DNA of 64,000 nt. Origin: Sphingobacteriales bacterium 16-39-50. Lineage in GTDB: Bacteria; Bacteroidota; Bacteroidia; Sphingobacteriales; Sphingobacteriaceae. This document shows positions 5,569 through 64,000 of this stretch, one piece after another; the first letter of the stretch is position 1; the number at the start of each line of letters is the position of its first letter. The position numbers were made by a program, and so were the translations under genes. The stretch is taken from assembly GCA_002257025.1 (NCBI GenBank), contig NCHA01000004.1:1-64000 (forward strand). The letters are read 5' to 3'. The notes under the pieces are model-generated. The model did not search any database and was not told where the DNA came from. It saw nothing but the letters and a program-made list of their open reading frames with translations.

Positions 5569-6966
5569 ATGAAATCAAAAAGAGATAATACCCGCAGAGA
5601 CTTTATTAAACAATCGATGCTTACCGCTGCAGGTTTAACTATTATTCCTGGATTCGTTTTAGGAGAGGATGGGATCCCATCAATCAGCAGAGAAACAGCT
5701 CAAATAATTTCAGGAGGTCAGACAGGAATGAAAACTGTCGCTTTTATTGCTAATATCTATTTTAAAATTTCTCACGCTGATGTAATTGGGACTAAACTTT
5801 TCCTAGGTATACCAACGGATGAAGGCATGGTAACCCCGCAAGTAAAAATTGTATCAGTATGGATCGACCAAATTGATGACAATGCATGGGTAGGCCATGA
5901 TGATGCCACCGATATTGGTGTTCGGATTGCAAAAATGAATGGGGCAACAATCTATCCAACAATCGCAGAGGCATTAACTCTTGGAGGCGATAAACTGGCT
6001 GTGGATGCTGTTATTTACATTGGCGAGCACGGTGAATACCAGAATAACCGGCTTGGAGTAAAAATGTATCCGCGAATGAATTATTTAGAACAGATTTTCA
6101 GAGTGTTTGATGCCTCCAATAAGTCAGTTCCGGTTTATACAGACAAAGCTTTGGCCTATAGTTGGCTGGATAGTAAGTGGATTTATGATAGGTCTAAAGA
6201 ATTAAACGTCCCAATGATGGCCGGCTCATCACTCCCTTACTGTTGGCGCGACCCTGATTTTGAACATCCAATTGGGACTAAAATCACACAAGCTGTAGCG
6301 ATAGGATACGGTTCGCTTGAATCTTATGGATTCCATGTTGCAGAAATTCTTCAGTGCATGCTTGAGCGCCGGACTGGTGGGGAAACAGGTGTGGCAGGTA
6401 TCCTGGGCTTAGGGGGAGATGATGTATGGGCAGCAATGGATTCCGGAAAAATCTCTCAGGAGCTGGTAGATACTGCCTGCAATAAAATTAGAAATAAAGC
6501 TTCAGGTTCGATGCGCGATTTAGTTAAAATGCCACAAGCTGTAATAGTGCAATACATTGATGGAACTAAGGGAGCAATTTTATTGTTAAATGAGTATGTT
6601 AAGTCTGGCTGGGCTTATGCTGCCAATGCAGAGGGCAAAACCGTAGCTACTGAATTTGTACTTAGCTCTGCTCCGGCTTATTCTCATTTCAGTTATCTGA
6701 CACTTAATATTCAAAAATTTATAGTGACAGGCAAGCCAACGGCAGCTATAGAACGAACTTTACTCACCAGCGGAATTATAGACATTGGAATTCGATCACT
6801 TGCAGAAGGAAAACTAAGAAAGACACCATTTTTGAATATTAAATATTCTGCAAAAGAGTTTGAGAGTATCCGACCGAAAAATCCACGACCAGTCGGACAA
6901 AGTATTGGCCCATGGCCTCCAAAAGGATATGAGTTTACGCTTCGTGATCCTCTAAAGATAAAATAA
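5569..6966 (+). CDS. Tat-exported protein of unknown family (paralogue of the genes at 59.9-64 kb)
   Basis: This 465-residue protein starts with a twin-arginine signal (NTRRDFIKQ, then a hydrophobic stretch), so it is exported folded, perhaps with a cofactor. The mature part starts with a beta-alpha-beta-like segment (VAFIANIYFKISHAD). It shares with the three paralogues the motifs SHAD, EALTLGG, a GEHG-Y motif, SVPV-x2-DK, GSSLP and LQC-x3-ERR-x-GGETGV. I do not recognise a named family. The order of motifs is reminiscent of Gfo/Idh/MocA-like Rossmann proteins, but that is a weak inference. It stands alone between the sensor kinase and glpKF. Compared with the other copies it is divergent: it lacks the conserved pre-sequence before the Tat motif and has WRDP where they have YRKP. 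Confidence 0.8.
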   Translation: MKSKRDNTRRDFIKQSMLTAAGLTIIPGFVLGEDGIPSISRETAQIISGGQTGMKTVAFIANIYFKISHADVIGTKLFLGIPTDEGMVTPQVKIVSVWIDQIDDNAWVGHDDATDIGVRIAKMNGATIYPTIAEALTLGGDKLAVDAVIYIGEHGEYQNNRLGVKMYPRMNYLEQIFRVFDASNKSVPVYTDKALAYSWLDSKWIYDRSKELNVPMMAGSSLPYCWRDPDFEHPIGTKITQAVAIGYGSLESYGFHVAEILQCMLERRTGGETGVAGILGLGGDDVWAAMDSGKISQELVDTACNKIRNKASGSMRDLVKMPQAVIVQYIDGTKGAILLLNEYVKSGWAYAANAEGKTVATEFVLSSAPAYSHFSYLTLNIQKFIVTGKPTAAIERTLLTSGIIDIGIRSLAEGKLRKTPFLNIKYSAKEFESIRPKNPRPVGQSIGPWPPKGYEFTLRDPLKIK

Positions 6967-54557: not shown

Positions 54558-54630
54558 CATGGTATGATGTTGGTACCTTTATGTCAGGTTGAAAAATTTG
54601 AGGGGAGATAAAAATAAACTCAAATTTCAT

Positions 54631-55920
54631 ATGTTTGAGTCTATGACCCAGCCAACTACCCCCGCGAATCCGGTACGCCGTATTTTAGCAGCGAGCCTCA
54701 TCGGCACCACCATTGAGTTTTTCGATTTTTATATTTATGCCACTGCTGCGGTGTTGGTCTTTCCAAAATTATTTTTCTCGGCTTCTGATCCTGCTATGGC
54801 TACCCTGGAGTCGCTGGCTACTTTTGCGCTGGCCTTTTTTGCAAGGCCATTAGGTGCAGCCCTATTCGGACATTTTGGCGACCGTAAAGGACGTAAGGCA
54901 ACGCTTGTTGCAGCGCTTATGACTATGGGTCCATCTACTGTCGCTATCGGACTCCTACCGGGCTATGACTCCATAGGCATAGCTGCACCGATATTACTGG
55001 CCGTATTTCGTTTCGGACAGGGATTAGGCCTGGGCGGTGAATGGGGTGGTGCAGTATTACTCGCGACAGAAAATGCACCACCGCACAAAAAAGCCTGGTA
55101 CGGCATGTTTCCGCAATTAGGTGCGCCTATAGGTTTCCTCTTATCTACCGGCTCATTTTTTATACTGAGCAGAACCATGAATGATAGTGACTTTATAAAC
55201 TACGGCTGGCGCATACCTTTCATAGCCAGTGCATTGCTTGTATTTGTAGGCCTCTATGTGCGTTTAAAAATTACCGAAACGCCTGATTTTATGAAGATTG
55301 TTGACAATAAGCAACAATCAAAAATGCCGGTAAAGGATGTGTTTGTAAAAAATACTAAAGCCATCAGCCTTGGCACCCTGGCTACGATCACCACCTTCCT
55401 GCTCTTTTATTTAATGACTGTATTTACGCTGAGCTGGGGTACAACGGCGCTGAATTATACTAAAAGTGATTTCCTGATCCTGCAAATGGTCTCTATGCTA
55501 TTCTTCGGATTAGGAATCCCCCTATCGGCCTGGCTGGCTGATAAATATGGACGCAATGAAATGCTACTTGCTGCAACGATCGGGATCATGTTGTTCGGAC
55601 TTTTCTTTGCTTTCATATTTATCTCAGACAACTTATTTCTCACAGGAGTATTCCTTTCACTGGGTATGTTCCTGATGGGTCTTAGCTACGGACCAATAGG
55701 CACCGCACTAGCAGGGATCTTTCCGGCGCCTGTACGTTATACCGGAGCTTCATTAGCCTTTACACTTGCCGGGATTTTGGGAGCTTCTTTAACTCCCTAT
55801 TTAGCCACCACCCTGGCGCAGAATTACGGACTTGCCTATGTGGGTTATTATCTGACCATTGCTGCTGGACTTACACTGCTGGCTTTGCTGGGATCGAAGA
55901 AAATGATGAGGAAGGATTAA
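54631..55920 (+). CDS. MFS transporter, metabolite:H+ symporter (MHS) family
   Basis: This is an inner-membrane protein with 12 predicted helices, 429 residues from the ATG at 54631; a TTG at 54589 and an ATG at 54643 are alternatives. Family motifs are IGTTIEFFDFYIYATAAVLVFPKLFF, the loop GHFGDRKGRKATL and GLGLGGEWGGAVLLATENAP. The MHS group (ShiA, KgtP, ProP) moves organic acids, osmolytes and the like with protons. It may import the breakdown product of the nearby degradation genes, but the substrate cannot be told. It ends in the AAGCTTAAAGC repeat. Confidence 0.93.
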   Translation: MFESMTQPTTPANPVRRILAASLIGTTIEFFDFYIYATAAVLVFPKLFFSASDPAMATLESLATFALAFFARPLGAALFGHFGDRKGRKATLVAALMTMGPSTVAIGLLPGYDSIGIAAPILLAVFRFGQGLGLGGEWGGAVLLATENAPPHKKAWYGMFPQLGAPIGFLLSTGSFFILSRTMNDSDFINYGWRIPFIASALLVFVGLYVRLKITETPDFMKIVDNKQQSKMPVKDVFVKNTKAISLGTLATITTFLLFYLMTVFTLSWGTTALNYTKSDFLILQMVSMLFFGLGIPLSAWLADKYGRNEMLLAATIGIMLFGLFFAFIFISDNLFLTGVFLSLGMFLMGLSYGPIGTALAGIFPAPVRYTGASLAFTLAGILGASLTPYLATTLAQNYGLAYVGYYLTIAAGLTLLALLGSKKMMRKD

Positions 55921-58865: not shown

Positions 58866-59432
58866 CTACATGCGAATAGAATTATAAAGCTTACTGAAAT
58901 TAGTAGGATCGATATTCAGGTAACTTGCAATATACTTATGCGGAACCAGGTGTAAGAGATGAGGGCTTCTTGCAACGAAATTTTTAACCCGTTCTTCAAT
59001 TGTACAGGTATGAAATTCCCTGTGTCTGGTTACGAGTCCGCAGAATTTAGCCTCAGTCATCTTTCGGAACAACCTTTCAATAGCCTGCGACTCATCAAAT
59101 AATTCTTCCAGCCTGCGAAATGAGATAGCCCCATAACTGCTGTCGGTAAGTGCCCGGATATAATATTGTGTGGGCTGCTGATTATAAAAACTATCCGGCA
59201 AGCCCATTAAGGATTGGGGGTAATGGAAAGACATCACACACTCTGCCCCATCATGATTATAGCAGGATATCTGGGTTCCTTCGTAAACAAAATACAGATC
59301 CCTGGTAATATCTCCTTCGGCTGCTATGAGATCATTACGCTTTGCATGACAGGTACTTAAACTATCCGCAATTAATTCATAATCCCGCCTGCTGATCTGA
59401 TGATACTTATTTAAAAAATCATGATAATCCAT
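58866..59432 (-). CDS. Crp/Fnr-type regulator of the Bacteroidota Crp-like group
   Basis: The protein has 188 residues: a cNMP-binding fold (about 20-110; LYFVYEGTQISCYNHDGAE, PQSLMGLPDSFYN) and a C-terminal helix-turn-helix (HLVPHKYIASYLNIDPTNFSKL). It is a paralogue of the protein at 23965-24573. It lies directly upstream of the alpha/beta hydrolase gene, which it may control. Confidence 0.9.
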   Translation of the reverse strand: MDYHDFLNKYHQISRRDYELIADSLSTCHAKRNDLIAAEGDITRDLYFVYEGTQISCYNHDGAECVMSFHYPQSLMGLPDSFYNQQPTQYYIRALTDSSYGAISFRRLEELFDESQAIERLFRKMTEAKFCGLVTRHREFHTCTIEERVKNFVARSPHLLHLVPHKYIASYLNIDPTNFSKLYNSIRM

Positions 59433-59854: not shown

Positions 59855-61222
59855 ATGGCAAAGAGACCAAGCGAAATCAATGGCAAGGCATCAGATACAT
59901 TCCCCATCAATGAAATTATTGAGTCAAACCCAGGCTTTACACGGCGGGAATTGCTAGGGATGGCCGGCTTAGCGGGTGTAATGGCCCTTACCGGCAATGC
60001 GGCAGATACTTTCGCACAGACTACGCAGACAAAACCTCGTATCGCTTGTCTTGTCAGTTATTGGGCTCTTACCAGATCACATGCCGACTGGATTATTTGC
60101 AAGCTATTGGATGGTTATTGGTGGCAGGGCGCCCATAATCCATCGCGGGTGGAGGTTGTGTCTGTTTACATCCATCAGCTTGAAGAAAGCGCATTGGGTC
60201 AGAAAATTTGCAAAGCGAAAAACATTCCGATCTTTAAGACTGTAGCCCAGGCCGTAACACTTGGGGGAACGGAACTTGCCGTGGATGGTGTGGTCATTAT
60301 CGGGGAACACGGAAATTACCCAACCGATCTTAAGGGGCATTGGTTATTGCCGCGCTGGTGGATTTACAATCAGGTAATTCGTGTTTTCGAGCAGAGTAAA
60401 CGTTCGGTGCCGGTCTTTAACGACAAGCATCTCTCCTATAATTGGGATGAAGCTAAGTGGATGTTTGACAAATCGCGTGAGCTGAACTTTCCCCTGACTG
60501 GAGGATCTTCAATACCCAGCTATTATCGCAAGCCAGAAATAGAACTGGATATTGATACACCCATAAAGACATCGATAGTTGTCGGAGTCGCTCAAAATGA
60601 AGGAGCCATTTTCCATTGTATCGATACGCTCCAGTGTTTTGTAGAACGCCGTAAGGGCGGTGAGACCGGCGTGAAGTCAGTGCAGAACATTACAGGACCT
60701 GAAACATGGAAGTGGGTTAAACGCAATCCCTTGGTTGACAAACTGCTTGAAGCGGTGCGAACAAGTTTGGACCTGAAGCCGGGTTATTTTCAGGAGAATA
60801 GAAGACCAAGTGTCCTGATCGTGGAGTATAATGACGGAACTAAAGGCGCTGTAATTTCCGGACTTGAAGTTGGCTGGACTTACGCCGGCGAAATCGAAGG
60901 GCGCAAAGAACCAGTGATCGTCTCGATGCTTGGAATGCCAGGCCCTTTCGGACAGTACCACGCAGCCAATGACCTGCCGCATTGGATTACCGAGATGATG
61001 CTCACTAAAAAGGAGCCATTTAATGCTGAACGGCTGCTTCTATCGACAGGGATTACAAACCAATTCAATGAATCAAACTGGGAGAACGGTCGTTACTCTG
61101 CAGTAGGACGACGTATCGAGACGCCGTTCCTGAACATTTCCTACCGCTCTACTCGGGGACCACTCTTTAACAAGGGCGAACGACCACCTAACCTACCCTA
61201 CATCCGCGGCTTTGATCAATAG
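59855..61222 (+). CDS. Tat-exported protein of unknown family, tandem copy 1
   Basis: The protein has 455 residues. A conserved pre-sequence (DTFPINEIIESNPGF) is followed by the twin-arginine motif TRRELLG and a hydrophobic stretch ending near residue 55. The mature part begins PRIACLVSYWALTRSHAD and has IFKTVAQAVTLGGTELAVDG, VVIIGEHGNY, RSVPVFNDKHLSYNW, LTGGSSIPSYYRKPE, FVERRKGGETGV, LIVEYNDGTKGAV and LLLSTGITN. No named family is recognised. Transport in folded form suggests a bound cofactor; a Rossmann-like N-terminus is inferred. It is highly similar to the next two genes. Confidence 0.85.
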   Translation: MAKRPSEINGKASDTFPINEIIESNPGFTRRELLGMAGLAGVMALTGNAADTFAQTTQTKPRIACLVSYWALTRSHADWIICKLLDGYWWQGAHNPSRVEVVSVYIHQLEESALGQKICKAKNIPIFKTVAQAVTLGGTELAVDGVVIIGEHGNYPTDLKGHWLLPRWWIYNQVIRVFEQSKRSVPVFNDKHLSYNWDEAKWMFDKSRELNFPLTGGSSIPSYYRKPEIELDIDTPIKTSIVVGVAQNEGAIFHCIDTLQCFVERRKGGETGVKSVQNITGPETWKWVKRNPLVDKLLEAVRTSLDLKPGYFQENRRPSVLIVEYNDGTKGAVISGLEVGWTYAGEIEGRKEPVIVSMLGMPGPFGQYHAANDLPHWITEMMLTKKEPFNAERLLLSTGITNQFNESNWENGRYSAVGRRIETPFLNISYRSTRGPLFNKGERPPNLPYIRGFDQ

Positions 61223-61242
61223 ATCAAAAAACAGGAAGCAAC

Positions 61243-61257
61243 CCTGCCGGCAGGCAG
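61243..61257. repeat. CCTGCCGGCAGGCAG palindrome
   Basis: This short GC-rich palindrome between the first two tandem copies is related to the elements at 39694-39715 and 51901-51920. Confidence 0.5.
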
Positions 61258-61419
61258 AGAAAAAAGACAAAGACGAAATCTTCAATTCCATCAACCATAT
61301 TTGTTACATGACTGACTGCATAATCATTCCTAATCATTCAAAGTATTGTTAATTTAGTTTCCGGATATAGATTAAATGGCAGGGCATAATATTCACTCCT
61401 AAACAAGAAATAAAACTTT

Positions 61420-62790
61420 ATGGCAAAGAAACAAATGGAAATTGCAACAGGAGCTGCAGATTCCTTTCCAATCACCGAAATTATGGATGCTAATCCGCTG
61501 TTTACCAGGCGTCAAATGCTTGGAATCGCGGGCATGGCAGGTTTAACGGCTTTTGCGGGCAATGCTGCAGCTGCTGCTTTCCCAAATACTCAGCAAAGCC
61601 GGCCCCGTATCGCTGTTCTGGCCAGTTATTGGGCTTTTACGAGATCACATGCCGACTGGATCGTAAACAAGCTGATCGATGGTTATTGGTGGGATGGTGC
61701 TTATACTCCATCGAGAGTAGATGTTGTTTCTATTTATATTCACCAGCATGATGAAAGCTTATTGGGTCAGAAGGTAGCTAAGGCAAAAGGTATTCCGGTA
61801 TATAAAACAGTAGCGGAAGCGGTTACACTTGGCGGTAAGGAACTTGCAGTAGATGGGGTTGTCATCGTAGCAGAACATGGGGAATATGCAACCGACCTCA
61901 GAGGGCACTGGCTCCTGCCGCGCTGGTGGATCTACCAGCAGGTTGTGCGGGTTTTTGAACAAAGCAAACGCTCTGTTCCGGTCTTTAACGACAAGCACCT
62001 CTCCTATAATTGGGACGAGGCAAAGTGGATGTTTGATAAATCGCGTGAGCTGAACTTTCCATTAACAGGAGGTTCCTCCATACCAGTCTATTATCGTAAG
62101 CCTGAAATCGAAATCGATATTGATACCCCTATAAAAAATTCGATCGTGATTGGAGGTGCCGGAGATGAAGGTGGCATTTTCCATGCGATTGATGTACTTC
62201 AATGCTTTGTAGAACGTCGTAAAGGGGGTGAATCTGGCGTTAAGTCGATACAATCTATTCGCGGACCGGAAGCATGGAAATGGGTCGAACGTAATCCATG
62301 GGCCGGAAAACTGCTCGATTCAGTCGCAAAAAGATTTGAATTCAAACCCGGATATTTCCAGGAGAGCCCGGGAACAAATATATGTGTCATAGAATATAAT
62401 GACGGAACTAAAGCCGCCGTAATTGGTGGTCGTGGTGTGGGATGGACTTACGCAGGTGAAATTGCAGGAAAAAATGATCCAACGATCATCTCCATGCTGG
62501 GCTGGGCCGGTCCATACGACCAGTATCATGCCTCTAACGCTCAACCACACTGGATCACAGAGATGATGGTGACTAAAAAGGAACCATTCAATGCTGAGCG
62601 TTTGCTTCTATCTACTGGTATTACAAACCACTATATGGAATCAAACTGGGAAGGTAGCAAGTACTCGGCAGTCGGACGACGCCTCGAAACGCCGGCACTG
62701 AATATCAAGTATCGGTCTACAAGAGGTGCACAGTTCAGCAAAGGGGAAAGACCACCGGCTAGGCCGTATATCAGGGGGTTTGATCAGTAG
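61420..62790 (+). CDS. Tat-exported protein of unknown family, tandem copy 2
   Basis: The protein has 456 residues with the same layout as copy 1: the pre-sequence DSFPITEIMDANPLF, the Tat motif TRRQMLG, and a mature part beginning PRIAVLASYWAFTRSHAD. DNA identity with copy 1 is high over long stretches (for example the region coding NDKHLSYNW), which suggests rather recent duplication. Differences cluster in the middle (GAGDEGGIFHAIDVL) and towards the end. The aromatic-rich segment DGYWWDGAYTPSR is kept. Function unknown. Confidence 0.85.
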   Translation: MAKKQMEIATGAADSFPITEIMDANPLFTRRQMLGIAGMAGLTAFAGNAAAAAFPNTQQSRPRIAVLASYWAFTRSHADWIVNKLIDGYWWDGAYTPSRVDVVSIYIHQHDESLLGQKVAKAKGIPVYKTVAEAVTLGGKELAVDGVVIVAEHGEYATDLRGHWLLPRWWIYQQVVRVFEQSKRSVPVFNDKHLSYNWDEAKWMFDKSRELNFPLTGGSSIPVYYRKPEIEIDIDTPIKNSIVIGGAGDEGGIFHAIDVLQCFVERRKGGESGVKSIQSIRGPEAWKWVERNPWAGKLLDSVAKRFEFKPGYFQESPGTNICVIEYNDGTKAAVIGGRGVGWTYAGEIAGKNDPTIISMLGWAGPYDQYHASNAQPHWITEMMVTKKEPFNAERLLLSTGITNHYMESNWEGSKYSAVGRRLETPALNIKYRSTRGAQFSKGERPPARPYIRGFDQ

Positions 62791-62795
62791 GAGAT

Positions 62796-62892
62796 TGAGG
62801 TCTGAGATAGGAGGTCTGAGGTAGGATGTTTCAGACCTCAGACTTCTGACCTCAGACTTCTGACCTCAGACTTCTGACCTCAGACCTCAGAC
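62796..62892. repeat. tandem and inverted CTCAGACTTCTGAC repeat
   Basis: Three full 14-bp units CTCAGACTTCTGAC (62837-62850, 62851-62864, 62865-62878) and a partial one end at 62892. On the left, GAGGTCTGAG words at 62797 and 62812 are the inverse, so the tract can fold back on itself. It lies between copies 2 and 3. Confidence 0.8.
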
Positions 62893-62931
62893 AAATGGAA
62901 CAAATAAAATATAACAAATAAAATTGCAGTC

Positions 62932-64000
62932 ATGGAGCCAGATTCATTCCCAATTAATGAAATTATAGAGTCAAACCCAATTTTTAGTAGACGTGAAATG
63001 CTTGGAATTGGTGGTATTGCAGGTTTAGCGGCTCTAACGGGCATCTCCAGCGATGCTGTTGGACAGAGTCAGGAGAGAAAACCCCGGATTGCTGTTTTAG
63101 CAACGTTTTGGGGAGCCACGAGATCACATTCCGACTGGTTGGTAAACAAACTGATCGACGGTTATTGGTGGCAGGGTGCTTATCATCCTTCACGTGTTGA
63201 AGTGGTATCGTTATACCTGCACCAGCATGATACAAGCTTGCTCGGACAGAAGGTCGCAAAAGCAAAGGGTTTTCCGGTATATAAATCGATAGCCGAGGCT
63301 TTGACACTTGGTGGCAAGGAACTTGCAGTGGATGGTGTAGTCATCGTTGGAGAACATGGCAACTACATCACCGATATGAAGGGACGTTGGCTATTGCCAC
63401 GCTGGTGGATGTATAATCAGGTTATCCGGGTATTTGAACAGAGTAAGCGCTCCGTACCGGTGTTTAACGACAAGCACTTCTCATACAATTGGGATGATGC
63501 GAAGTGGATGTTTGACAAATCCCGTGAACTGGGCTTTCCATTGACCGGTGGATCATTACTTCCGGTCTACTACCGCAAACCCGAAATAGAACTGGAAAAC
63601 GATACACCAATAAAGCACTCAATCGTGGTTGGGGCAGCCCCTGATGAGGGAGCAATTTTCCATTGTATCGAATTACTGCATGCATTCGTCGAGCGCCGAA
63701 AGGGCGGTGAGACCGGTGTGAAGTCGATTCAATCCATCCGCGGACCTGAATCATGGAAGTGGGTGGAACGCAACACCTGGGCAGCTAATCTACTGGAAGC
63801 GGTAGCCAAAAGACTGGAATTAAAGCCGGAGAACTATCAGGCAAATCCAAGAACCAATATTTGTGTAATTGAATACAATGATGGAACAAAGGCAGCGATC
63901 ATTGGCGTTCCCTTATCCGGATGGACGTATGCCGGTGAGATAGAAGGACGTACAGAGCCAACAATTGTCTCCTTACTTAACTTCCCGGGGCCATTCGACC
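62932..64000 (+). CDS. Tat-exported protein of unknown family, tandem copy 3 (partial, runs off the window)
   Basis: The first 356 codons are visible, starting at the ATG at 62932 (MEPDSFPINEIIESNPIFS) with the Tat motif SRREMLG. It lacks the MAKK-like first ten residues of copies 1 and 2. The mature part keeps the family motifs (TRSHSDW, EALTLGGKELAVDG, GEHGNY, NDKHFSYNW, GGETGVKSIQS, VIEYNDGTKAA). The 3' end is beyond the window. No frameshift or stop is seen. Confidence 0.85.
   Translation, partial: MEPDSFPINEIIESNPIFSRREMLGIGGIAGLAALTGISSDAVGQSQERKPRIAVLATFWGATRSHSDWLVNKLIDGYWWQGAYHPSRVEVVSLYLHQHDTSLLGQKVAKAKGFPVYKSIAEALTLGGKELAVDGVVIVGEHGNYITDMKGRWLLPRWWMYNQVIRVFEQSKRSVPVFNDKHFSYNWDDAKWMFDKSRELGFPLTGGSLLPVYYRKPEIELENDTPIKHSIVVGAAPDEGAIFHCIELLHAFVERRKGGETGVKSIQSIRGPESWKWVERNTWAANLLEAVAKRLELKPENYQANPRTNICVIEYNDGTKAAIIGVPLSGWTYAGEIEGRTEPTIVSLLNFPGPFD

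Follow-up and report, generated by a model that had tools for sequence, protein, structure and literature searches.

A probable Tat-exported branch of the Gfo/Idh/MocA superfamily with an altered cofactor loop, encoded beside an M19-type hydrolase

A tandem gene array under long-standing purifying selection

The window (the whole 64,000-nucleotide stretch of DNA that was analysed) holds three tandem genes of one protein family and a fourth copy at 5.6 kb, and the open reading frames of all four, as called in the original prediction, were confirmed (Table 1). Protein identity among the tandem copies is 71-75%, with copy 2 the most conserved of the three, and three further family members of ~35% identity are encoded on another contig (C62) of the same 4.1 Mb genome, in which the window is positions 1-64000 of contig C37. 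The nearest named relatives are Daejeonella (97% and 93%), and the host genome is therefore that of a Daejeonella-like Sphingobacteriaceae. The five motifs that had been described as shared are present but carry substitutions in some copies: SHAD (SHSD in copy 3), LGGxELAVD (LGGDKLAVD in copy 4), GEHGxY (AEHGEY in copy 2), DKHxSYNW (DKALAYSW in copy 4) and ERRKGGETGV (with ESGV in copy 2, and ERRTGGETGV in copy 4). Likewise, the pre-sequence ahead of the RR pair, also described as conserved, is kept in the tandem copies and in many close Bacteroidota and Acidobacteriota homologs, but not in copy 4.

Table 1. Family gene copies in the window and landmark positions within copy 2
Feature	Position (strand)	Description
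Tandem copy 1	59855..61222 (+)	455 aa, complete ORF; Tat-type signal and predicted divergent Gfo/Idh/MocA-fold body
Tandem copy 2	61420..62790 (+)	456 aa, complete ORF; basis of the structure model
Tandem copy 3	62932..64000 (+)	Gene cut by the window end; stop at contig base 64269, 445 aa
Copy 4	5569..6966 (+)	465 aa; distant paralog, ~36% protein identity
Copy 2 twin-arginine motif T-R-R-Q-M	61504..61518 (+)	Residues 29-33; R30 and R31 97% conserved in 111 members
Copy 2 beta1-alpha1 loop, RIAVLASYWAFTRSH	61606..61650 (+)	Residues 63-77; position of the superfamily GxGxxG, without the glycine motif
Copy 2 EHGxY motif	61873..61887 (+)	Residues 152-156, after beta strand 146-150
Copy 2 D191-K192	61990..61995 (+)	Aligned with the Gfo/Idh/MocA EKP/DKP Lys motif in profile alignments
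Copy 2 E250 to H255	62167..62184 (+)	Helix start; aligned with the superfamily catalytic His region

The tandem array is old. Maximum-likelihood analysis places every one of the three positions in a clade of its own, together with its counterparts from other Daejeonella, and copy 3 even groups with a Saprospiraceae gene. The copies share 70-73% DNA identity, with a saturated dS of 1.8-2.6 and a longest identical run of 23 bases, so that the high DNA identity proposed originally is not borne out, and the absence of long identical stretches speaks against gene conversion between copies. All three orthologous clades are under strong purifying selection, with dN/dS values of 0.03-0.11 both between copies and between orthologs (~0.1 for copy 1 against its ortholog, 0.03-0.04 for copy 2 against its orthologs). 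The tree and these ratios rule out recent tandem expansion and positive selection, and with them the recent selection that had been suggested.

A Crp/Fnr-type regulator gene at 58866-59432 (-) is divergent from tandem copy 1 and may control the array; four further loci of the family (L041, L051, L057 and L061) contain similar regulators. An MFS transporter gene at 54589-55920 (+) lies upstream of the array, as it does in five other Sphingobacteriaceae loci.

Predicted fold and superfamily placement

Searches of Pfam, NCBIfam, PADLOC and PDB sequences with single proteins and with a family profile returned nothing meaningful, the matches to Pex24p and phenylalanine ammonia-lyase being due to chance, and PF01408 gave zero matches among 32 diverse family members even at E 0.1. 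Literature searches returned nothing on the family and nothing on a Gfo-M19 pair. The earlier statement that no named function is recognised thus holds, in that neither a curated model of Pfam or NCBIfam nor any PDB sequence matches. The profile search and structure prediction that had been recommended as a check were run, and revealed a relationship to Gfo/Idh/MocA proteins.

An AlphaFold2 (AF2) model of copy 2, computed with 46 aligned relatives, reached a pLDDT of 80.6 and a pTM of 0.81; pLDDT exceeds 85 over most of the mature protein, and confidence is low for residues 1-58. The model of copy 4 was weaker (pLDDT 69.5). The models predict two domains, an N-terminal Rossmann domain and a C-terminal alpha/beta domain, as in Gfo/Idh/MocA proteins. 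Foldseek comparison of the copy 2 model with the PDB gave 296 matches at E <=0.001 (best E 4e-12), and the 50 listed among these 296 were all of Gfo/Idh/MocA type, comprising biliverdin reductase, glucose-fructose oxidoreductase (GFOR), inositol dehydrogenases, GenD2, KanD2, NAD-dependent glycoside hydrolases and similar proteins. The 50 matches listed for copy 4 were likewise all of this type (best E 3e-13), and both GFOR and Caulobacter AAOR are among the matches listed for the family models. TM-scores were moderate, at ~0.5-0.65 by target length.

Profile comparisons, which do not depend on the structure models, point in the same direction. Run against genomes, the family profile retrieved at E 3e-5 a Tat-type Gfo/Idh/MocA protein that is itself a PF01408 member. 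In hhalign, the closest profile match was a Tat-exported subgroup with the loop sequence GLDTSH (for example L073:1021-2040, and L103 and L105 of the own genome), which scored 97.8-98.2% (98.2% at E 6e-14), and a mixed Gfo/Idh/MocA profile scored 98.0%; after removal of the signal peptide the values were 97.3% and 97.0%, respectively, and the profile similarity spans the mature protein. Control profiles (reversed, column-shuffled and unrelated, including SDR Rossmann proteins) reached at most 0.8%, and hhalign was negative for the M19 protein (<=5.9%) and other neighbours as remote relatives of the family. On the basis of predicted structure and profile similarity, the family very probably belongs to the Gfo/Idh/MocA superfamily, as a branch that has diverged deeply and lies near the 'GLDTSH' subgroup; it is called a divergent branch, and not an ordinary member, because the GxGxxG loop is absent.

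The undescribed enzyme family of the original prediction is therefore unnamed by the databases but not a new fold or superfamily. That it should be entirely new, unrelated to known superfamilies and recently expanded under positive selection would accord with the lack of a Pfam, NCBIfam or PDB sequence match, but is highly improbable in view of the fold and profile matches with their clean controls, and of the three ancient orthologous clades with dN/dS of 0.03-0.11.

An altered cofactor loop behind a conserved export signal

In Gfo/Idh/MocA proteins the loop after the first strand carries the GxGxxG motif and contacts the cofactor diphosphate (PMC11489326). No GxGxx[GA] was found after beta1 in any of the 111 aligned family members (0/111). 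Positions conserved in at least 97% of the 111 members include A65, H77, E152, H153, P167, R168, D191, K192, G218, R226, H255, Q261, R266, R267, G269-E271 and Y431 (copy 2 numbering), among them the invariant or nearly invariant H77 (99%), E152 (100%), H153 (99%), D191 (99%), K192 (100%), R226 and H255 (99%), and invariant residues occupy the cleft-side positions. The DK pair occupies the position of the EKP motif, whose Pro is replaced in the family, mostly by His, and H255, which starts the predicted catalytic helix as in the superfamily, aligns with the YGIH of the 'GLDTSH' subgroup; distant family members have YGFHxxE where the subgroup has YGIHGVE. Unlike in the superfamily, the Asp of the DxxxH motif is not at its usual position: there is none at -4 from H255, and the alignment rows that were inspected have an acidic residue at -5. 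The C-terminal part of the family is larger and bears the GGETGV motif. Judged from the models and alignments, the family keeps the fold and two landmark residues (the Lys and the His) and has lost the standard cofactor grip, and, with GxGxxG gone in all members and no match to PF01408, dinucleotide binding may be lost.

The 'GLDTSH' subgroup shares with the family the SH after beta1, the DK motif and YGxHxxE at the catalytic helix, whereas it matches PF01408 (E 1.7e-13), keeps one loop glycine, is ~340 aa long and is without the EHGxY and GGETGV motifs; it may represent an intermediate stage in the loss of the canonical loop. This Tat-type subgroup (L103, L105, L107, L108 and L073) has GLDTSH or a similar sequence in place of GxGxxG.

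The idea of an ordinary NAD(P)-dependent dehydrogenase of the Gfo/Idh/MocA type, missed by the Pfam model, accords with the shared fold and with the 35 PF01408 matches in the own genome, several of which carry an RR-type leader. This explanation is nonetheless unlikely, since GxGxxG is absent from all aligned members, none of the 32 diverse members matches PF01408 at E 0.1, and hhalign against canonical cytosolic Gfo profiles alone gives ~29-52%.

Across the 111 members the twin-arginine motif shows 97% conservation, and the own genome encodes TatC (contig C45, E 2.4e-63); the TIGR01409 match is weak and below the cut-off. The protein would thus probably sit in the periplasm. Both Zymomonas GFOR and Caulobacter AAOR share with the family the superfamily and Tat export, so that Tat export of a Gfo/Idh/MocA enzyme has precedent (PMC4628093). 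The original argument that export in folded form suggests a cofactor is possible by the GFOR precedent (PMC4628093), but is weaker than it sounds because the cofactor-holding GxGxxG loop is absent. Exported Gfo/Idh/MocA proteins appear numerous in the own genome, where many of the 35 PF01408 matches in 4.1 Mb have RR-type leaders. GFOR and AAOR themselves have a canonical superfamily sequence match and act on free aldoses, and to our knowledge no M19 partner has been described for either.

A conserved hydrolase partner and its possible meaning

An M19-type gene (PF01244, E 2e-80) follows copy 3 at contig positions 64453-65733, just past the end of the window. Outside Acidobacteriota, 34 loci have 1 kb or more of sequence downstream of the family gene, and in 30 of them an M19 gene lies on the same strand at most 1 kb downstream, with a median gap of ~46 bp and mostly within 150 bp; these loci partly share ancestry, and p-values for the adjacency are accordingly too small. 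In Acidobacteriota with a single-copy gene the M19 gene is usually non-adjacent, and of 16 family-positive genomes that lack the adjacency, 12 have the partner elsewhere in the genome; in about half of the Acidobacteriota stretches fetched around M19, the gene next to it is another, more divergent paralog of the family. Among 296 genomes drawn from the phylum of the window, full-strength family members and the M19 partner were both restricted to the own genome, and Fisher's exact test gave ~1e-18, a value that is indicative only, as genomes are related and phyla differ. Copy 4 has neither M19 nor any other cassette gene alongside. The search for genomic partners in other genomes, also proposed as a check, thus yielded partners, among them the M19-type hydrolase with its probable export signal.

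The first metal motif of the peptidase M19 reference is HxD. In all 18 aligned partner sequences it is HxH, the Asp of the HxD position being replaced by His69, and H67, E166, H235, H256 and D374 are invariant; most partners have an RR or hydrophobic leader. The Glu, two His and Asp motif positions are conserved as in peptidase family M19, and any dipeptidase activity of the partner is putative.

Around the Acidobacteriota copies and the distant Daejeonella copies, neighbouring genes encode M81 (MlrC-like) metallopeptidases, GSA-aminomutase-like PLP enzymes, DgaE-like PLP lyases, EF_0837-type amidohydrolases, RidA proteins and gamma-glutamyltransferases (GGT), and SusC/SusD genes also lie beside family copies in Bacteroidota. 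Of 60 loci, 13 have M81 within the stretch that was fetched, compared with 0.7% expected from M81 density. Directly upstream of the Latescibacterota homolog lies a gene for an EF_0837-like amidohydrolase, and the neighbourhood of an Arthrobacter plasmid homolog (27.7%) is uninformative. Together, the family, M19 and these wider genes have the look of an exported cassette for the catabolism of amide-linked compounds. Two more specific substrate models, mercapturate (GGT, M19 and beta-lyase) and glucosaminate (deacetylase, DgaE, RidA and KDPG aldolase), were considered and are tentative, each fitting part of the cassettes. The deacetylase, PLP deaminase and RidA steps of the Pseudoalteromonas chitin oxidation (ong) cluster follow a logic similar to that of the genes for amidohydrolase, DgaE-like and RidA proteins found close to distant members of the family. 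This is an analogy that bears on the substrate class only; the ong enzymes are cytoplasmic and have no Gfo/Idh/MocA-like or M19 partner (PMC9537276).

Two loci of the own genome illustrate the wider gene content. The contig C62 cassette (L245, L010 and L011) has three family members, SusC/D, amidohydrolases, DgaE-like PLP genes, a RidA pair, a BASS transporter, M81, GGT and a GSDH-cytochrome c fusion gene. Contig C58 (L247 and L153) has a PUL-like locus without glycoside hydrolases, with SusC, FecI/FecR-like genes, an HxH M19, several EF_0837-type amidohydrolases, DgaE-like PLP proteins, two RidA, KDPG aldolase, an RraA-like gene, 2-hydroxyacid dehydrogenase and glycerate kinase, and looks like a locus for breakdown of an amino-sugar acid, amide or similar compound.

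The role we favour, with confidence at about the midpoint, is that of a Tat-exported, loop-altered Gfo/Idh/MocA branch acting as redox partner of the HxH M19-type hydrolase in a cassette for amide compounds. The family protein would be exported folded via the Tat pathway and would pair in the periplasm with the exported M19-type metal hydrolase, the pair being part of a catabolic cassette for uptake and breakdown of small amide-linked compounds. Acting on what the hydrolase takes as substrate or releases as product, the family protein would most likely still perform redox or hydride chemistry, in an active site built on K192, H255, H77, E152 and H153, with a dinucleotide that would be exported already bound, as in GFOR, and gripped by a remodelled loop in place of GxGxxG. 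Redox chemistry as such, the function we prefer, has a roughly even chance of being correct. A serious rival, though a less probable one, is that the fold was kept and redox activity lost, the protein being a lyase, an isomerase, a hydrolase or a substrate-binding or helper subunit of the M19-type hydrolase in which the invariant His/Glu/Asp cluster serves acid-base chemistry or metal binding. The absence of GxGxxG (0/111), the strict linkage to hydrolases and the invariant H77, E152, H153, D191 and H255, which could make a metal or acid-base site, are consistent with such a loss, whereas the retained Lys and His positions are typical of redox members, and Tat export is typical of, though not exclusive to, cofactor-loaded proteins.

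A further-reaching proposal, that the Gfo/Idh/MocA fold has here become a non-canonical, possibly dinucleotide-free Tat-exported catalyst, obligatory with the variant M19, in an undescribed periplasmic amide pathway common in soil Acidobacteriota and Bacteroidota, is tentative and rather doubtful. The probable superfamily identity and the conserved hydrolase partner make many unnamed proteins a testable two-gene system. Should the standard cofactor loop prove dispensable, this would reveal a novel use for a very common enzyme fold, and should NAD(P) still be held, a new mode of NAD(P) binding.

Of 200 genomes sampled from a single Acidobacteriota order (the order of genome G305, with named members assigned to Bryobacterales or Solibacteraceae), half carry the family, and some have at least 8 copies. 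Some Acidobacteriota paralogs (L184 and others) have an in-frame stop, which suggests gene turnover in the expanded Acidobacteriota family.
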